From Phascolomyces articulosus (lineage: Eukaryota > Mucoromycota > Mucoromycetes > Mucorales > Lichtheimiaceae), in contig JAIXMP010000013.1 in assembly GCA_025677815.1 (NCBI GenBank), positions 682,001-746,000 on the forward strand: a stretch of 64,000 bases of DNA, given 5' to 3'. A program made the position numbers and the translations under genes. Under the pieces are notes generated by a model. That model ran no database searches. It saw nothing but the letters and a program-made list of their open reading frames with translations, and was not told the origin of the DNA. Shown here piece by piece: positions 9,969 to 52,933 of the stretch (position 1 is the stretch's first letter; every line of letters begins with the position of its first letter).

Positions 9969-11169
9969 ATGTCATATAATGTTCAAACTCGAAGAGTATT
10001 TCGAAAAAATGGAATATTACCTACCAGTCATTCAAGAAAAGGTATTATTCAACTTCATATCTAAAACGAGCCTGTCAGATAATAATAGCGTTTTTTAATT
10101 AAATTATATAATAGAAGAAGTAAATAATCATGATGATACGATAGGAGGATTATCACGAAAACAACTATCGTTAATAGTACTTGTCGCTCAAAATACACTA
10201 TTAGTGCTAATGATGCGATACTCACGCATTGTACCAAGGAATGGCGATCAACCATTATATATTGCATCAACAGCCGTTGTCATGGCTGAAATCATTAAAT
10301 TATTGGTATGTCTATGTATGCTTCGATCCGAATTAAAATCTTGGTCACTATGTCGTTCGGCTCTTGTCAAGGACATTATATACAATCCCAATGAAACCGT
10401 ACGACTCATGACTCCATCGGCATTATACGCGATCCAAAACAACTTGCTCTACTTGGCACTCAGTAATCTCGAGGCAGCTACTTTTCAAATAACATATCAA
10501 CTCAAAATTTTATCAACAGCTATTTTCTCCAACGTATTATTGAATCGAAGGTTAAATCAGAATCAATGGTTTGCGTTAGGATTGTTGATGGTGGGTGTGA
10601 CGTTAGTACAAATCACGACGCGTGAAGAAGAACAACCTGATATGGAAGCTATAAAGCAAGAACAAAACCCAATGCTTGGTTTGATGGCTGTTTTAGCGAG
10701 CTGTATTTCATCTGGGTTTGCAGGATGTTATTTTGAACGGATGCTTAAACAATCAAGTACTTCCATGTGGATGCGTAATATTCAGTTGGGAATATCAGCA
10801 TTGGGGTTTTCTATAATTGCCATGGTAACAAGTGATTTTCAAGCTATTTGGCGACATGGAGGGTTATTTCAAGGCTATACCATTTTGACATGGATGGTCA
10901 TTAGTAACCAAGCTTTGGGTGGCCTTTTGGTAGCAACCGTCGTCAAACACGCAGATAATATCTTGAAAAACTTTGCTACGAGTGTTTCTATCATTTTATC
11001 CAGTATCGTCAGTTTTTACTTTTTTGATTTTCAACCTACAGTAATGTTTGTTCTAGGTGCCATGTTGGTGACTACAGCTACATATTTTTATGGTAGTGCC
11101 GATGAAAGTCATCGTCGTCAACTTCAACATCAACAACAAACTCCATCCTCCATAAAACCACACCATTGA
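9969..11169 (+). CDS. Nucleotide-sugar transporter, UDP-galactose / SLC35A type
   Basis: Golgi antiporter that brings a nucleotide sugar into the lumen in exchange for the nucleoside monophosphate. Two exons (9969-10041, 10115-11169) join in phase to 375 codons. The ATG at 9969 is used because later ATGs, such as 9979, lie in a frame that does not continue across the intron. The SLC35A signature is present: LLVLMMRYSR, STAVVMAEIIKLLVCL, YAIQNNLLYLALSNLEAATFQ, YQLKILSTAIFS, a glycine-rich FAGCYFERMLK, and VKHADNILKNFATSVSIILS. About ten hydrophobic spans are visible, followed by a hydrophilic His/Gln-rich tail. The sequence is of the UDP-Gal/UDP-GlcNAc/CMP-sialic-acid transporter type. UDP-galactose is the most likely substrate in a fungus, but specificity cannot be read from sequence. 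Confidence 0.9.
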
Positions 11170-12307: not shown

Positions 12308-15300
12308 ATGGGTACGTTAAAGAAGTGGATGGATGAGGAAAAATTATACGCACAGATATTATATATTACCAAAGGGGATGGATGATTGACAGGATGGATG
12401 GATGGATCAAGTCATATGCCTCTATGTATATGTAATGTGTATGTGTGTGGGAATATTTTTGCTAACCTGTTTGTTTATATTATGGATGGTTCATTTTACC
12501 CATGAATAGTGGTATGTATTTTATATTACAATTTCAAATAATAACTCAATGAAGTCCATGGTGACAATTTTATGTAACTAAATAAACTTGCCTATTATTA
12601 TATTATTATTATAGAACTTTACTGTTGAGGAAATCCGTGGTTTGATGGTAATTATGAATGACCTTTTTTTTTTGCAATTCTCGAAACATTCAATTACCAA
12701 AATGGGGAAAATGGACAATGTCAACTAACTCACTTTTTTGCTCTTCTCCTTTCATGGTTTATTATCAAATAGGACAAAGTTACGAACGTCCGTAACATGT
12801 CCGTCATTGCTCACGTCGATCACGGCAAGTCTACTTTGACTGACTCTTTGGTCTCCAAGGCCGGTATTATCTCTGCCGGTCGTGCTGGTGAAACCCGTTT
12901 CATGGATACCCGTAAGGATGAACAAGAACGTGGTATTACCATCAAGTCCACCGCTATTTCCATGTATTTCGCTTTGGAAAACCCTGACGATGTCAAGGAA
13001 ATCAAGGGCCAAAAGACTGAAGGTATGAAGAGTACTTTATATATATGAAGTGGGGAACGAGAAAGCAGTTTAAAGTAGTATAATGAGAATATGTTACTTA
13101 GCTTATTATTTTTTGTAATGATATTATAGGCCATGATTTCTTGATCAACTTGATCGATTCACCAGGTCACGTTGATTTCTCCTCCGAAGTTACTGCTGCC
13201 CTTCGTGTCACTGATGGTGCTCTTGTCGTCGTTGATTGTATTGAAGGTGTCTGTGTCCAAACTGAAACTGTCTTGCGTCAAGCTTTGGGTGAACGTATCA
13301 AGCCTGTTATCGTCATTAACAAGATTGATCGTGCTTTGCTTGAATTGCAATTGGAGAAGGAAGAATTGTACAACGTATGTAGTTTTTTTTTGCATTTTAC
13401 ATACGAATGGAACTGAAGCTGTAGAAAGAATGGTGAAATTGGAGAGTACTTTTTTCTAACTTGATATTATTATTAGGCTTTTGCTCGTACCATTGAATCC
13501 GTTAACGTCATCATTGCTACCTACTTTGATGAAGCTCTTGGTGATGTCCAAGTCTACCCTGATAAGGGTACCGTTGCTTTTGCTTCCGGTCTTCACGGTT
13601 GGGGTTTTACTCTTCGTCAATTCGCTGTCCGTTACTCCAAGAAGTTCGGTGTTGACAAGGAAAAGATGATGCAACGTTTGTGGGGTGAAAACTACTTCAA
13701 CCCTAAGACCAAGAAGTGGACTACCAAGGAAACCGATGCCAGTGGCAAGCCTTTGGATCGTGCTTTCAACATGTTCGTCTTGGATCCTATCTACAAGATT
13801 TTCGATTCCATCATGAACTTCAAGAAGGAACAAATCCCCGTCCTTTTGGAAAAGCTCGAAATTCACTTGAAGAACGAAGAAAAGGAATTGGAAGGCAAGC
13901 AATTGCTCAAGGTTGTCATGCGCAAGTTCTTACCTGCTGGTGATGCTCTTTTGGAAATGATCTGTATTCACTTGCCTTCCCCCGTCACTGCTCAAAAGTA
14001 CCGTGTTGTCAACTTGTACGAAGGTCCTTCTGATGACGAATGTGCTCAAGGTATCCGTGACTGTGACCCCAACGGTCCTTTGATGATGTATGTCTCCAAG
14101 ATGGTTCCCACCTCCGATAAGGGTCGTTTCTACGCTTTCGGTCGTGTTTTCTCTGGTACCATCCGTGCTGGTCTTAAGGTCCGTATTCAAGGTCCTAACT
14201 ACCAACCCGGTTCCAAGACCGATTTGGCTATCAAGTCTATCCAACGTACCGTTCTTATGATGGGTCGTAACACTGAAGCCATTGATGACTGTCCCGCTGG
14301 TAACATTATCGGTTTGGTCGGTGTTGATCAATTCTTGGTCAAGTCTGGTACCATCACCACCTCCGAAGTTGCCCACAACATGAAGGTTATGAAGTTCTCT
14401 GTCTCCCCTGTCGTGCAAGTTGCCGTTGAAGTCAAGAACGCCAACGATTTGCCCAAGCTTGTTGAAGGTTTGAAGCGTCTTTCCAAGTCTGATCCTTGTG
14501 TCTTGACCTACACCTCCGACTCTGGTGAACACATTGTTGCCGGTGCTGGTGAACTTCACTTGGAAATTATCTTGAAGGATTTGGAAGAAGATCACGCTCA
14601 AGTTCCTATCCGTACTGGTGACCCTGTCGTCCAATACCGTGAAACCGTCACTGCTGAATCTTCCATGGACTGTTTGTCCAAGTCTCCTAACAAGCACAAC
14701 CGTATCTTCATGCGTGCTATGCCTTTGGATGATGAATTGTCCAACGATATCGAAAACGCCAAGATTGGTCCCAAGGACGATTTCAAGGCTCGTGCCCGTA
14801 TCTTGGCTGACAAGTACAACTGGGATGTCACTGAAGCCCGTAAGATTTGGTGTTTCGGTCCCGATGCTACCGGTCCTAACCTTGTTGTCGATGTTACCAA
14901 GGCTGTCCAATACTTGAACGAAATCAAGGATTCTTGTGTTGCCGCTTTCCAATGGGCTACCAAGGAAGGTCCTTTGGCCGAAGAAAACTTGCGTGGCTGT
15001 CGCTTCAACATCTTGGATGTTGTCCTTCACGCTGATGCTATCCACAGAGGTGGTGGTCAAATTATCCCCACTTTCCGTCGTGTTGTCTACGCTTCCATGT
15101 TGACTGCTCAACCTGGTATCCAAGAACCCGTCTACTTGGTCGAAATCCAATGTCCCGACTCTGCTATGGGTGGTATTTACTCCGTTCTTAACCGTCGCCG
15201 TGGTATGGTCTTCTCTGAAGAACAACGTCCTGGTACCCCCATGATGAACATCAAGGCTTACATGCCTGTCAACGAATCTTTCGGTTTCACTGCTGATTTG

Positions 15301-15477
15301 CGTGCTGCCACCGCTGGTCAAGCTTTCCCTCAAGCTGTCTTCGATCACTGGCAAGCTATGACTGGTAACCCCTTGGAAGAAGGCAACAAGGTCTATGATA
15401 TCATCCGTGCCGTCCGTAAGAGAAAGGGTCTTGTCGAAGATATTCCCGGTCTTGACAAGTACTACGATAAGCTCTAA
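12308..15477 (+). CDS. EFT: Translation elongation factor 2 (eEF2)
   Basis: GTPase that drives ribosomal translocation. The spliced frame is 844 codons, matching the 842-845 of other fungi. Exons: 12308-12311 (ATGG), 12510-12511 (TG), 12615-12647, 12773-13022, 13130-13374, 13477-15477. The two-base second exon is required to give [11 protein letters not shown]1 is AHVDHGKST (residues 26-34), followed by DSPGHVDF and NKIDR. The diphthamide loop [12 protein letters not shown] puts the modified His at residue 701. The protein ends in DKYYDKL. Switch I reads [15 protein letters not shown]: Met replaces the Thr (yeast Thr57) phosphorylated in yeast and animals. Codon use is strongly biased to C-ending and other preferred codons, unlike neighbouring genes, as expected for a very highly expressed gene. 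That bias also creates long empty ORFs on the opposite strand. Confidence 0.97.
12510..12511 (+). other. Two-nucleotide microexon of eEF2
   Basis: Exon 1 ends ATGG|GTACGT. The next coding block begins AG|AACTTTACTG. Joining these directly gives a stop within five codons. Inserting the TG that lies between TGAATAG and GTATGT restores ATG GTG AAC TTT ACT, the conserved MVNFT start, and makes the total coding length divisible by three. The flanking introns (198 and 103 bases) have good donors (GTACGT, GTATGT), and the first has a CTAAC branch-site match near 12462. No other ATG or donor in the interval gives an open frame. Confidence 0.72.
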
Positions 15478-16276
15478 ATGCTTTCATCCGCATTCCTATT
15501 ACTCCCTTCTTAAATTAGAATTTGTGTATATTGCATATAGCAACAATGATAAAGTTATTTTTCATTTTCCTGATACAATTTTTATTTGTTATTATGGATT
15601 ATCCGTGTTATTATTAATATATATATCCTGTGGTACAAAAACAATAATGAAATGGATGTTTTACGATTGATGAGGGTTGGATCGATGAAGAAGATAGTGT
15701 TAAGATAGAGCTTTTGTGTTGACGTTTTTTATTGCGACAAAAATTCGATATGGTAGGGTATGAAATGACTATCCAGAGTACATAACGACTATACGAACAT
15801 GATTTTGGATATATAGAAAACTGAAAAACATATTTCGCGTTAATAATGCTATCTACTTGATAGATGGTTACATAGTCAATTAGTTGGATGATATTCGTTT
15901 GGATGGCTGTATATGTACGGTTGTGATTCTGGTGATAGTATGTGATATATATGTTAAGATACCTGACCGTTAATGTGAAACAAAAATTCAATAGCAAGTC
16001 CTTGTAAGTAAAGAACGGTGGTTTTTCTATATATCTTTAAATCATTTTTGTATTAAACTATCATATTATCATATAATATAATATAGCATCCAGATAAGGT
16101 AGATCTCAAAAAAAATGGATCGACAACATTCAGGTTTACATATTTACAATTGGTGTCACTTTGCTGAGTTTACCCCAGACATATCTTTTATGCAATAGAT
16201 AACGATTCGATGCTTTTATAGAAACGATTGAAAACATATAATTCGTTAATAAATCAAAACCTTGACATTATAATAA
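15478..16276. other. Intergenic: eEF2 3' region
   Basis: AT-rich DNA running from the eEF2 stop to the foldback element. No conserved coding sequence is seen; the ORF at 15614-15997 on the minus strand has no recognisable content. Confidence 0.4.
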
Positions 16277-20926: not shown

Positions 20927-21056
20927 TCAAAAGTATACTCTCTATATTCTATATTGGTAAATTCCCCAGCAGATTTTTCATTTCCGACAACAACAAAAAA
21001 ACACAGGAACATCTTTAGTGTCTCTGTTTATTATAAAAGAAAGAAAATAACCTGCC

Positions 21057-22733
21057 ATGCGGAGGCTATGGATCAATATACCTACTCGAAATAATAGTGT
21101 GTTTTGTCAATGTCACCAGTTACCAACACCACGAATACTTCGCATCGATTTGCGATCGCAGCGGTATACAACGGGAGCCGCCACTATGGCTTGTGAAAGC
21201 AGCAATAGCAGCATCAATAATAATAATAATAATAACACAATGTCGACTTTTACCAATAATACCACCCGACGACACATTAATAGTAATAATAAACATCGAT
21301 CCATTGGCAATGACTTTTTAGAATACCTCACAAATGCTGAACGAGCAACAGGAGCAACGACACCACTACGACAAAGGATCAATACCGATGAAAGACGATC
21401 AGTAGCACCTAATTCATGTTCCAAAAAGGATAAAGCTTCAGCACTATCCGACTTTTATCGTTCGTTAGCAACTCAAGACATTGACTCCATATGGCCAAAA
21501 TATAGTTATCTTTATCATTACCAGTACCACAAGTATTTGACGCGCCGCAACTTTCGACAGTTGTTTTTAAGCGCGATTCGATCACGGTCAACACAGCGCA
21601 ACCTCCATCGATTACTGGTCCTGATTGACGATATGAAAGAACGAGGAATGCAATTAAAATGCAACGAATATGATGCATTGATGCATTGGATTGGAGGTCG
21701 CACTGTGCCAGTAAAAAAGTCTCATCATTTAACAGAGGCGTTGGCGCTCTTTGATGAAATGCAACAACAGCGAGCGATCCAGCCTTCACTAGTGACATAC
21801 AATACGTTGATTCATATAGCATCGCAGGTTTCTGATATACGGATGGCTCAGCGATTATACCACGATATGATTGCACATGAGATTCAACCGGATGCTTATA
21901 CATATGCAACATTGTTAAGAAGTATGGGACGAATGCGAGATGTGGATGGAATGGAACAAATGCTTGAACAGTTACAGTCAATGCAACATGTCGCGAACAA
22001 TACAATTATATGGAATGCAGCATTATCGGGATATGCGGCGAGTGGTAGAATAGACGATGTCAAAACAATGTTTACCAAAATGTATAATTCATTACAACAA
22101 CATAATAACAACAATAATATTACGACAGAAAAACCACAACAAAATTTAGAATTAGAAGACGAAGGAAAAGAACAAGGAGAAAAAAAGGCACCTATTGCAG
22201 ATTTTCAAAGCTTTCGGATATATATTGAAGCACTGCTGAGCCAAGATGAACAAGAGGAAGCAGTCCAAATATTAGAAGATATGATACAACATGATATTGA
22301 ACCAATTGCAGTTATTTACAACAATCTATTTCGATCATTTATGAACGAAGACCGAGAAGAAGAGGAGGAAGATAATAAACCCAATGATAAAAATGACCTT
22401 ATGATGGATGAAACGAAAAGGACTCAATTAGCTACTGTCAAGAAACTATATCAATCCATGATGGAGTTGAATGTGGCGCCCAACTCGGACACTATGTATA
22501 CCCTTGTTTCCGCGCTTCTCGACTTGGGTGACACCAAGTTGGCATTGGAAACATTTGTACAACTCAACAAGAAAACGGCTACAATGGAGGCTGTCAAGGA
22601 TCATGCTGCCATGACGGATCATGATACGGTTGCCATGCTTGCACAACGACGATTTGCATTGGATACCACAAAACCAAGTAAATTGGAGCCAAATCAAGAA
22701 TTGTTGGAAAGATTAGGAAAGATTGTCAAATAA
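21057..22733 (+). CDS. Pentatricopeptide repeat (PPR) protein, probably mitochondrial
   Basis: Single-exon 558-residue protein. PPR proteins bind organellar RNA with tandem 35-residue helical hairpins. Clear repeats lie at about residues 225-345: ALALFDEMQQQ..QPSLVTYNTLI, AQRLYHDMIAHEIQPDAYTY, MEQMLEQLQSM, TIIWNAALSGYAASGRIDDV. More divergent ones follow at about 380-430 and 470-510 (VKKLYQSMMELNVAPNSDTMY). The N-terminus (MRRLWINIPTRNNS) is basic and lacks acids, fitting a mitochondrial presequence. Residues about 50-75 are Asn-rich from AAT repeats, and an acidic insert (EEEEDNKPND) splits the later repeats. The gene is divergent from NRK1. Its target RNA cannot be inferred. Confidence 0.87.
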   Translation: MRRLWINIPTRNNSVFCQCHQLPTPRILRIDLRSQRYTTGAATMACESSNSSINNNNNNNTMSTFTNNTTRRHINSNNKHRSIGNDFLEYLTNAERATGATTPLRQRINTDERRSVAPNSCSKKDKASALSDFYRSLATQDIDSIWPKYSYLYHYQYHKYLTRRNFRQLFLSAIRSRSTQRNLHRLLVLIDDMKERGMQLKCNEYDALMHWIGGRTVPVKKSHHLTEALALFDEMQQQRAIQPSLVTYNTLIHIASQVSDIRMAQRLYHDMIAHEIQPDAYTYATLLRSMGRMRDVDGMEQMLEQLQSMQHVANNTIIWNAALSGYAASGRIDDVKTMFTKMYNSLQQHNNNNNITTEKPQQNLELEDEGKEQGEKKAPIADFQSFRIYIEALLSQDEQEEAVQILEDMIQHDIEPIAVIYNNLFRSFMNEDREEEEEDNKPNDKNDLMMDETKRTQLATVKKLYQSMMELNVAPNSDTMYTLVSALLDLGDTKLALETFVQLNKKTATMEAVKDHAAMTDHDTVAMLAQRRFALDTTKPSKLEPNQELLERLGKIVK

Positions 22734-40458: not shown

Positions 40459-43122
40459 TTAAAAGTGTTCACTGGTAGCATAATAATCTACTTGATGGAA
40501 ATTTTGCCGTTGTCGTATTAAGCGTCGTAATAAAGCTTCTTCTTCAATGACTTCATGACGACTCAAACTATTGAATCGACGATCTGCCAAAGCGATACCA
40601 TACACACGTCCGTAATCATGAACAGGACCGTCCTGGTGACCACGATACCAACCCAAAGAATAAGCCGATCGAATCATACGTAAAGCAAACTCTTCACGTA
40701 ATGATTTACTTGCATTAATACGATTATAATCAGCAGCGGCATCACGAATCGCGCGTTCCAAGGTGGTTGTATTGCTGGCGCCAAATAAGTAAGCATTATA
40801 ATATTCACTGCTGGTGACGGTAGGGATACGGGTTTCCTTGTCACGAATGATATGAATATCGCGAGCAGGCTCAGCTTCAGACCATGTTGCTTCATCTGGT
40901 CGATCAATCAAATATTCACCTAATCCACCGACGCCTGTCGAAATTACGGAAGAACCAAACCAAAGTCCTTCTGCTGCCATCAATCCAAAGTTTTCCGTCA
41001 AACTAGGTACAAAGACAAAATCGGCCGCACTGCGACAAAAAATGGACCAGCGACGTTGCTCTGCAGCTGTCGACATGACAATGACATCCTCTGGGTATTT
41101 CTCCTGCAATGCTTCAAGTTTTTCAAGTGGATAGTCGCCTGGTTGACCAATAACGACAAATTTCATGTTGTTTTGAACAAAATAATCGGCAGCATCAGCA
41201 AATGAGTCCAATCCTTTGTCGTGTTGGAATTGTCCAATGTAGAGCACCAAGGGACGCTTTAAATCATCTTCTTTGAGTAAACTACGTCGTACAAGGAATC
41301 GTTTGGCACGATCTTTGGAAGTGGTAACATAATCATTCATGGCACCCGACAAGGGCCAGATCGTGCGGACTTCTGGAACGCTCAATGCCTTTGGATCATC
41401 CGATGCCTTCGATGCCAGCGATGGCTGCCTGCGGATCATATCTAAAGAGTATTCCGGGAATCCGATCTTGCGGGATACCAATCGTGGGTCTTTGAATGGA
41501 TTCAATTGATTAAAATCAACACCATTGCTAATACCAAAGAACCGACGTTCTTGTGCTTTGTTAAGCACACTTTCCATTCCGACTTCTTTGAGATACACTT
41601 CAAGACGACCTTCCACGAGATCCGATGCCATGGTACGACCCACCATAGTAACCACGCTTGCATGATCCATACCCAAACTTGACATAAACACGCGCTGACC
41701 ACGTGTATGTGGTTGCAATGCTGGATCATTAGTGATAGGGGCTTCATCCATAAATTTATGCAAGTTAGCAAGTGAATTGGTATATTGAAGTTCTTGTTTA
41801 TAATCGTGAATAGTGTAAACAACAGATGGAGGTTTAGGACCCAATTGATCCATTTCGCGTTTATCATGCAATGCCTTGGCAATATAAGCGGTTGAAGCGC
41901 CATGTAAGTGCACCACATCGACATGTGGGGCTAAACGAATAGGAGCAAACAAAGGCTCTTCATCTTTGGCTGTTGCTTGATGAGTTAAAAAGGCAGCTGC
42001 TGCTTTGCTAAAGAATTGATCTTGCCATTCACGAGGTAATCCAGGTGGGTTGTTGCTATAGATCTGAAGCGCATTTCTAGCACGAAAGACTTGACTGAAG
42101 GGACGCCTATTACCCGGACCAATCAAGTAAACTTGGACACGTTCTGTTCGGGGGATAGGTTTGGGTGGTTCGGTCATGGGCGGGGCAACGGAAACAGTAG
42201 TGTTGACACCATCGACCATTTGCCAAACAGTGATGTTGGTGGGCGGAGGTGGAGGATCAAATACATAATCCATCTTCCAAACCCGAAATTCGATAGGAAT
42301 TTGTCGTTTTTTCTTATCACGAACGTCAATGACCATGTCTGTCAATTTTTCAATATCGAATTTGTTTTTTAAAAATGAATAATATGGCATCACAATGCGT
42401 ACATCCTTGTCGCCTGTCTTTTGTTGTGCTGCAGCTAAAGCAGTAACGGTTACACCAATGCTACTCATCATGGCAGGTCCAAATTCTTTTGTAACGTGGT
42501 AAACGGTGGCACCATGTTGGGTATTGACGGGGAGTGTTGTGTCGAGATGCTTGTATGGAATGGCTGGGTATTGTTTCAGGGCTAAAAATAATTGTCCATT
42601 AGTTTTTCTTTTTACATTTTATGTTCCCGACATCATAAAGAAGAACGTTTTTTTTTTTCTCGATCATCCCAACATGATAAAAATATATAGATGACACGGA
42701 TAAAGATAAAGAAATAGGAAAAAACAGGTATTTTTGGATTGGGATGTAGAAGTTATTTTTATAACAAAAGAAAAAAAGAATTGTTGTGTTATTGCCTTAC
42801 CGATCCGTACTGCTGCAGGTTGTCCATGTAATATCTTATAGCCGGTAATCAATGCCATAAATTGTAAAGTACCAAAGACGAATATCAATATCATTAAATA
42901 ATGCCACCAACGCCATTTGCGATCTTGTCGGCCGAAGAAAGGGGCCCCTGAAGAAGTAGTACGCCCTGAAGTAGAAAATCCAAGTGTCTGTTTCCATGAT
43001 AACCCAGTTTTACTCGTTGCTGTGGTTACGGGCATATTCAGTGCAGTAATCGAACCTCGACGATAGGTGGCTGTTGAAAGATCGTAATATTTCGTTTCGA
43101 CATTATTCGGAGGTGGTGTCAT
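40459..43122 (-). CDS. Type II membrane glycosyltransferase with GT5 (starch/glycogen synthase-like) fold
   Basis: Two exons (42801-43122, 40459-42581) give 814 codons. Residues about 1-73 are a basic, Ser/Thr-rich cytosolic tail. Residues about 74-96 (YLMILIFVFGTLQFMALITGY) form one membrane span, so the catalytic part is predicted to be luminal. The N-terminal GT-B lobe is starch-synthase-like: HVTKEFGPAMMSSIGVTVTA, DVRIVMPYYSFLKN, DVVHLHGASTAYI, VYTIHDYKQELQY. The C-terminal lobe has VLYIGQFQHDKGLDSFADAA, SLTENFGLMAAEGL and STGVGGLGEYL. The usual K-x-G-G-L-G-D nucleotide-sugar loop is replaced by MMSSIG, so the donor or activity may differ from glycogen synthase. A Golgi/ER wall-polysaccharide or glycan role is inference. 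The start follows a long C/T-rich leader. Confidence 0.82.
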
Positions 43123-50477: not shown

Positions 50478-52933
50478 TTAATAAACTCTAGCAACAGGTG
50501 GAACTGGTTTACATTCATTTTTATCTAGTGTGGTATCTGTCACTTTTCTATATTTAAGAGTGACTTCACCTGTTTCTTGGTTTTGCCATGATAATGTATG
50601 TTTCATCCAATTCTATATAAAAAAAACATTCATACATATTAGTATATAATGAATGAAAATTCTTTACTATGGATACACTATCCTATTCAAATAATAATCC
50701 CCAAAAAATGGATTACCTCATCATCACGTTCAGTATAATCTTCTCTTGCATGAGCACCACGCGATTCTTTACGAGCAGCAGCACCATACATGGTTTGAGC
50801 AGCACATGTCAATGCATTTTGTAATTCCAACGTCTCTGTAAGATCCGTATTCCAAATCATGCCTCGATCTGATAATCCAACATCCTGAAGATCTTCCCAC
50901 ACCTTATCAATCTTTTTACAACCTTCATCCAACGACGATTGTGTTCTGAAGACAGCAGCGTCGGATTGCATCACCTTTTGCATTCGCAAACGAATATCGG
51001 CCGTTCTATTGGCACCTGTAGCAGTACGAACCTTGTCCATATTTTCAATGGATTGCAAACCAGCATCTGAAGCAAAAGGTGTCAAGGGAGCGCCAGGAGA
51101 AAGGTTATCAGCAATATGATGAGCAACAGCACGACCAAAGACAACGATATCCAACAAGGAATTGGCACCAAGACGATTAGCACCATGAACAGAAACACAA
51201 GCGGCTTCACCCGCAGCATATAATCCAGGAACCACTTGATCATTGCCCTCTTTATCAATGGTCAAGACTTCACCCGTATATTTGGTAGGAATACCACCCA
51301 TATTATAATGCACAGTAGGAATGACAGGGATAGGTTCACGAATCACATCCACACCACAGAAAATAGCAGCAGTTTCAACAATACCAGGTAAACGTTCACG
51401 AATCAATTCTTCAGGTAAATGATGCAATTGTAAAAAGACATGATCCTTTTCTGGACCTACACCACGCCCTTCTCTTACTTCCATACTCATAGCACGCGAG
51501 ACCACGTCACGTGAAGCTAAATCCTTGGCTGTGGGTGCATAACGTTCCATGAAACGTTCACCTGCAGAATTGATAAGAATACCACCTTCACCACGACATC
51601 CTTCTGTAATTAAACAACCTGCGCCATAAATACCCGTAGGATGAAATTGAACAAATTCAGAGTCTTGGAGTGGAATACCAGCACGTGCTGCCATAGCGTT
51701 ACCATCACCCGTGCAAGTATGAGCAGAGGTGCATGAAAAGTAAGAACGACCATAACCACCAGTGGCTAGGACTGTCTTGTGCGAACGGAAACGATGTAAT
51801 GTACCATCTTCCATGTTGAGCGCAATCACACCTTTACATTCACCATCTTCCATAATAAGATCGAGAGCAAAATATTCAATAAAATAGTTTGTATTGTGAC
51901 GCAAAGATTCACCATAGAGTGTATGAAGTAAAGCATGACCTGTTCTATCAGCGACAGCGGCACAACGATAAGCTTGGCCCCCTTTATTATTTAAAAAAAA
52001 TGTCAATATATCATTTTCTATGTAGTATCTTGGTATATATATGTGAGTAAGAGTTGTGATTTTTTTTTTTTACCTTTGCCGTATTTTAAGCTTTGACCAC
52101 CTAACGCACGTTGATAAATTTTACCCTCCGAGTTTCGTGAGAATGGCATTCCGTAATTTTCAAGTTCGATTACAGCACGAGGGGCTTCACGACACATGTA
52201 ATGAATAGCATCTTGATCACCAAGCCAATCTGAACCTTTGACTGTATCATACATATGCCATCGCCAATCATCTTCTGTCATATTACCCAAAGCTGCATTG
52301 ATACCACCCTATTAATATTATTATTATTATTATTATCATAATACATATAAGTAAAAAAAGGTACAACAATTCTCTTCCACCCTGCCATTCAATGATATAT
52401 AAAATGACATGTGGGTTATATATCTTCCCCCACAAAACTCTAATTTCATATATTACCTGAGCTGCAACTGTATGTGATCTGGTGGGAAAGAGTTTTGTAA
52501 TGCAAGCTGTATTAAACCCTGCTTCTGCTAATCCAAAGGCAGCGCGCATGCCAGCACCACCTGCACCTACGACGACAGCATCATATTCATGATCAATAAT
52601 TGGATATTTGCTAGAAATACGACCCTATTTTTATATAATCCATATGAGTATATCTATCTTGGATATAAAGTATGCTTCCTTCTTCCTTCTTATTACCGAT
52701 ACAGAAGTTCCACGTAACGGTTCATTGGATATCACTTGTCTTCTTGGTTTAGCAGTATGGAATGAATTCCCTAGAAACAATAATATATTTAATATCTTTC
52801 TCGGTACAAAATGGATGGGATGATTATCCTAAGAAAAAAGAAATCATATAAAAAAAAACTTACGTATCACAAAGGTGTGTAAATCTCTGGAAACTGAAGC
52901 AATACGTGTTTTATTATGAGTGAAACGAAGCAT
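50478..52933 (-). CDS. SDH1: Succinate dehydrogenase flavoprotein subunit (complex II, SDHA)
   Basis: FAD subunit of complex II, oxidising succinate to fumarate at the inner mitochondrial membrane. Six exons from the right (52864-52933, 52697-52770, 52457-52624, 52074-52308, 50717-51981, 50478-50612) give 648 codons, the family norm. A basic presequence ([18 protein letters not shown]) is followed by [20 protein letters not shown] for FAD binding. [18 protein letters not shown] contains the His that carries covalent FAD (about residue 99). Also present: [66 protein letters not shown], and the tail WMKHTLSW ending [10 protein letters not shown]. All are canonical. The gene is divergent from the small unknown gene at 53906. 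Confidence 0.97.

Follow-up and report, generated by a model that had tools for sequence, protein, structure and literature searches.

The window, by which we mean the whole 64,000-nucleotide stretch of DNA that was analysed, contains a complete eEF2 gene on the plus strand with six exons that add up to 2535 nt, or 844 codons and a stop (Table 1). The translation of the joined exons has no internal stop across 844 residues, and all five introns are of the GT-AG type. The protein has full-length similarity to eEF2 over about 844 residues, for example to the elongation factor 2 of Phycomyces nitens (P0006; 89% over 100% of the query), and the top-scoring protein among the matches listed is that of Circinella minor (Mucorales, Lichtheimiaceae), which agrees with the Mucoromycota origin presumed in the original prediction. 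Other large open frames in the window have Pfam matches and are included in Table 1. No stray fungal eEF2 DNA was found in a scan of viral contigs or in phage records.

Table 1. Positions in the window of the parts of the eEF2 gene and of other features
Feature	Position	Strand	Remarks
Large open frame	10204..11169	+	Pfam nucleotide-sugar transporter (PF04142, E 9.8e-111); immediately precedes eEF2 among the large open frames
eEF2 exon 1, coding part	12308..12311	+	ATGG = ATG and base 1 of codon 2
Intron 1	12312..12509	+	phase 1, 198 nt, GTACGT...AATAG
GGAT array	12376..12407		degenerate tandem array inside intron 1
CTAAC match	12462..12466		44-48 nt before the end of intron 1
Intron 1 acceptor	12507..12509		TAG
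Exon 2	12510..12511	+	two-base TG = bases 2 and 3 of codon 2 (Val)
Intron 2	12512..12614	+	phase 0, 103 nt, GTATGT...TTATAG
TATTATTA-type repeat	12593..12613		at the end of intron 2, immediately before the acceptor
Intron 2 acceptor	12612..12614		TAG
Exon 3	12615..12647	+	33 nt, begins AACTTT
Intron 3	12648..12772	+	phase 0, 125 nt
Exon 4	12773..13022	+	carries VDHGK
Intron 4	13023..13129	+	phase 1, 107 nt
Exon 5	13130..13374	+
Intron 5	13375..13476	+	phase 0, 102 nt
Exon 6	13477..15477	+	includes stop TAA
Stop-free frame	13930..15483	-	517 codons, antisense to the last eEF2 exon
Large open frame	21051..22733	+	Pfam match to PPR repeats
Large open frame	40459..42618	-	Pfam glycosyltransferase (starch synthase catalytic domain)
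Large open frame	50687..52069	-	Pfam fumarate reductase/succinate dehydrogenase flavoprotein

The original prediction held that the start of this gene is split into ATGG, TG and AAC, with two canonical donors (GTACGT and GTATGT), two canonical AG acceptors, a CTAAC match in intron 1 and a total frame of exactly 844 codons, and each of these elements was found in its place. Intron 1 would interrupt codon 2 in phase 1 (ATGG^TG), and intron 2 would fall in phase 0 between codons 2 and 3 (GTG^AAC). We consider it about 93% probable that two spliceosomal introns cut the first two codons of eEF2 and leave the two-base coding exon TG between them. From the DNA we infer both the joining of ATGG, TG and AAC in the mRNA and the order in which the introns are removed. 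Branch sites were assessed by eye: the final 45 nt of intron 1 lack CTAAC both in the window gene and in two further copies described below, and the CTAAC of the window gene begins 48 nt from the intron end.

When the 47.4 Mb assembly (110 contigs) was searched with the large last exon, contigs C45 and C2 each proved to carry one more close eEF2 gene; we call these copy B and copy C, respectively. The other matches of this search were more distant (27-56% identity) and are presumably other GTPases. Copies B and C have ATGG/GT, then AG/TG/GT, then AG/AACTTTAC, and the ATGG/GT junction is common to all three eEF2 copies of the genome. The tiny exon reads TTAG-TG-GTATGT in copy B, where introns 1 and 2 are 256 and 108 nt long, and CTAG-TG-GTCAGT in copy C, where they are 159 and 87 nt long; each of the three genes has 844 codons. 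The second donor of copy C (GTCAGT) and the first donor of copy B (GTAAAG) are off consensus. With the window gene, copy B shares 836 of 844 residues and, among fourfold sites, 312 of 381; copy C shares 730 of 844 residues and 184 of 325 fourfold sites. Neither intron 1 nor intron 2 of copy C aligns with its counterpart in the window gene better than shuffled sequences do (z 0.7 and -0.9), yet TAG-TG-GT stays, so the AG-TG-GT core has been kept although the introns have drifted. In copy B the same comparison gives z values of 0.7 (intron 1) and 2.6 (intron 2). As in an ultra-small coding microexon (1-2 nt), canonical GT-AG ends lie on both sides of TG (four ends, three copies), inclusion of TG restores the frame of a conserved protein at 844 codons, and the exon is kept in related genes with diverged introns (three copies, one genome).

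Since each of the three eEF2 copies has the tiny exon, an old origin seems likely. We constructed a maximum-likelihood tree of 40 proteins, namely the three copies plus 37 of the best 120 records from one protein search; the tree was midpoint-rooted, and its interpretation was read from the non-Mucorales rows. The window gene and copy B grouped with Circinella and Lichtheimia inside a Mucorales group of 20 rows (96/95). Copy C grouped with Dichotomocladium and Fennellomyces inside a clade of 11 rows (100/98) that also has Absidia, Halteromyces, Hesseltinella, Chlamydoabsidia and Apophysomyces. Absidia repens, Halteromyces, Hesseltinella and Apophysomyces are represented in both parts of the tree, which dates the duplication to before these families diverged. 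Since copy C lies in a separate clade that spans several Mucorales families, the exon probably predates the duplication, and both introns were probably already present in the ancestor before an early eEF2 duplication in Mucorales. The DNA basis for this dating is one genome, and the exon could instead be real but not ancient, having originated separately in the two paralogue lineages or having been copied by gene conversion. We regard this as improbable: the positions and phases of the introns are identical while the introns of the window gene and copy C cannot be aligned, recent gene conversion would leave introns similar, and an exact double gain of both introns is unlikely. From the paralogues and the protein N-termini considered below, we infer that the microexon is conserved across species.

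To the prediction that the conserved N-terminus can be assembled only with a two-base exon, we can add a qualification: at the eEF2 locus of the window, 19 single-intron models reach AACTTT in frame, but none of them gives MV. We enumerated all models with zero, one or two introns that run in frame into AACTTTAC within 1000 nt at the three loci, allowing introns of 40-700 nt, an exon 1 of at most 150 nt and a microexon of at most 40 nt. This yielded 206 models for the window gene, 473 for copy B and 336 for copy C. No intronless start was found at any of the three loci within 1000 nt, and among the enumerated models the only N-termini reachable at all three loci were M, MV and ML. One MV model was found in the window, three in copy B and one in copy C, all with a 4+2 split. 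Two of the copy B models have poor donors and a TA exon, and a good second donor occurs only in ATGG/TG. Among the enumerated rivals that lack the TG exon, none has its start at corresponding positions in the three copies.

Two shuffle controls were used. With ATGG and AAC fixed, AGTGGTNNGT lay at a legal distance in 0.3% (window), 0.14% (copy B) and 0.095% (copy C) of 20,000 dinucleotide shuffles per locus. In the second control, the 1000 nt upstream of AAC were shuffled 3000 times while start, donors and split were left floating, and a 4+2 MV split with donors of at least the observed quality appeared in 0, 1 and 0 of 3000 shuffles for the window, copy B and copy C, respectively. When no demand was placed on the donors, some MV model was present in 23%, 21% and 32% of the shuffles, and the bare MV pattern at a single locus would be weak evidence. 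The case therefore rests on the conservation in three copies together with the quality of the splice sites.

We then compared the N-termini of database proteins. Two protein searches, each scoring about 8000 eEF2-like proteins, gave 143 different records when the best 120 of each were taken; 35 of the listed records were assigned by name to Mucorales/Umbelopsidales. An MVNF start was found in 12 of these 35 records, compared with 49 of 58 listed records from other named fungi and their kin, which include a 1395-aa protein of Chytridiales (P0068) that starts MAYEYALI. Fisher's test for this difference among the matches listed gave P = 1.2e-6, a value that comes from non-independent records (several of them from a single species) drawn from the best 120 of about 8000 and annotated by differing methods. 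That related records would carry wrong starts had been foreseen, and 23 of the 35 lack the MVNF start. NFT is kept and MV missing in 7 of the 35, which is what an intron abutting AAC would lead one to expect: the Circinella minor record (842 aa, labelled ‘partial’) begins NFTVEEIR, that of Lichtheimia ornata MDRSCKENFT and that of Apophysomyces ossiformis MPFPLQFNFT, and the other four are the records of Radiomyces and Chlamydoabsidia (MNFT), Halteromyces (MGNF) and Fennellomyces (MANF). Another 13 of the 35 start at the equivalent of Met13 and 2 at Met22, and one listed Umbelopsis record has an extension ahead of VNFT. A phase-0 intron abutting AAC, together with a tiny exon that cannot be placed, would cause this pattern of odd starts, although the pattern is no proof of a 2-nt exon in each species. 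The Halteromyces (P0011) and Fennellomyces (P0016) records begin MGNF and MANF, which could reflect either misannotation or 2-nt exons of differing sequence.

The rival start models were weighed against these data. A single intron that joins ATG directly to AAC (ATG/GT...AG/AAC) would give an MNFT start and no microexon, and MNFT starts are indeed annotated in two records, P0005 (Radiomyces) and P0022 (Chlamydoabsidia). Counted from AAC, suitable ATG/GT sites occur in the window at -57 (GTGACA, intron of 54 nt, ATG at 12558) and -129 (GTTCAT), in copy B at -872 (GTAACC) and -535 (GTAAGA), and in copy C at -678 (GTGATG). However, these distances are unrelated among the three copies, both window donors fit only one of four consensus positions, and Val occupies position 2 in those 49 of 58 other named records among the matches listed, all of which makes this model very unlikely. 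The ATGGTG at 12558, with the donor GTGACA, was rejected; nothing corresponds to it close to AAC in either copy B or copy C.

Slightly less likely still is that translation begins at Met13 (MDKVTN) and that the upstream pieces are untranslated. Although the 13 Mucorales/Umbelopsidales records with that start or its equivalent would agree with this, the three copies and many records share the upstream NFT(V/I)EEIR at the protein level, and a gene finder unable to place exons of 4 nt and 2 nt would be expected to pick the Met13 start. A real TG exon preceded by ATGT (ATGT/TG/AAC), which would give an MLNFT start, is extremely unlikely. Two such models exist at each of the three loci, one of them in the window with GTATGT at both donors and an intron of 71 nt, but their ATGs lie at unrelated places (-180/-174 in the window, -301/-288 in copy B and -460/-420 in copy C), the first donors in copy B fit only 1-2 of 4 positions, and ML followed by NFT is seen in none of the 143 listed N-termini (printed prefixes and classes). 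This model still implies a two-base exon, and 6 of 8 ML models use the same TG exon. A stwintron or a recursive splice site with no exon between the introns has next to no chance: introns separated by 2 nt do look as if one were nested in the other, and both readings make stepwise removal likely, but codon 2 requires TG in the mRNA, bases would be kept between the introns and no splice signal of an outer intron would be interrupted, whereas the outer donor of a [D1,2] stwintron is split by the inner intron.

If the two introns flank a TG exon as we propose, both must be removed, probably consecutively, because the machinery assembled on one intron covers the neighbouring splice site. Two spliceosomes can hardly bind simultaneously to introns that are 2 nt apart. 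In a plant microexon study, the same argument was made and flanking introns were inferred to be removed consecutively, the upstream intron being more often detained than the downstream one (PMC8831610). Exon 1 and the acceptor AG both end in G, and the three bases before the second donor are GTG before as well as after removal of intron 1; either order of removal thus leaves the near context of that donor unchanged. Inclusion of TG would restore codon 2 (Val) and the frame. Translation of the three copies with TG skipped gives a five-residue peptide followed by a stop (MELYC* or MELYY*), and retention of intron 1 or intron 2 leads to early stops in all three copies, so that mis-spliced messages would not encode the complete protein from its usual initiation codon. 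The requirement that the frame and codon 2 stay intact would have maintained the arrangement.

Val2 is a residue that would permit removal of the initiator Met by methionine aminopeptidase. In all three copies, the skipped mRNA has a five-codon open reading frame followed by an in-frame ATG at Met13, so re-initiation could yield an eEF2 that lacks its first 12 residues. It is conceivable, although doubtful, that the TG exon acts as a splicing checkpoint of Mucorales eEF2 genes and that the rate of the two-step removal sets the amount of full-length eEF2. If transcripts confirm the TG exon, an essential Mucorales gene relies on recognition of a two-base exon adjoining its start codon, and has probably done so since before an early gene duplication. 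The locus would then be a natural, testable case of how introns separated by 2 nt are spliced, and would provide a specific and probable explanation for the odd eEF2 starts in 23 of the 35 listed public Mucorales/Umbelopsidales records.

The eEF2 TG exon is unusual in adjoining the start codon in an essential gene and in being common to old paralogues. Recognition of short introns in fungi is generally considered to operate across the intron. The original statement that exons of this size defy exon-definition models was too strong, since exons of 1 nt have already been published; the TG exon is a new, apparently ancient case of that kind. Among the papers listed from one open-access library, judged by title and start of the abstract, we found no report of an eEF2 or Mucorales microexon, and in a Mortierella paper “microexon” occurs only as a TopHat option.

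The closest published case is CYP621A of Fusarium, where 18 RNA reads support a single-nucleotide exon; its authors describe it as the first for a fungal gene and cite exons of 2-5 bp in Arabidopsis, Drosophila and humans (PMC12940212). Like the TG exon, it is a fungal coding exon at the lower size limit that is revealed by an otherwise unclosable frame, is kept between related genes and is missing from nearly all gene models. Unlike the TG exon, it is 1 nt long and lies in the middle of a rarely expressed P450 gene (PMC12940212), while the eEF2 exon has 2 nt, sits at the start codon of an essential translation factor, occurs in three paralogues and is predicted here from DNA. In land plants, APC11 and VPS55 have 1-nt exons that are likewise tiny, old and frame-restoring, are missing from reference annotations, and leave models with shorter or different N-termini, as for eEF2; they differ in belonging to plants, in their length and in the evidence from RNA-seq and RT-PCR (PMC4674806, PMC8831610). 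The Xlr2 microexon of Trichoderma is also missing from the predicted gene model, but this switch microexon is 20 nt, ten times longer, and is glucose-regulated (PMC11121469). The stwintrons of Hypoxylaceae are also neighbouring fungal introns that need consecutive splicing, but there the inner intron splits an outer splice signal and no exon is kept (PMC9024468, PMC12403724).

Among the eight listed Glomeromycotina records, two have an MVNF start and six lack a normal start (P0073, P0087, P0102, P0109, P0112 and P0142), hinting that the eEF2 5’ end is likewise hard to annotate in that group. Copy C (contig C2, reverse strand, locus L014) has three additional introns where the window copy and copy B have one uninterrupted exon. 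The 517-codon frame antisense to the last eEF2 exon is probably not a gene but a consequence of codon bias.
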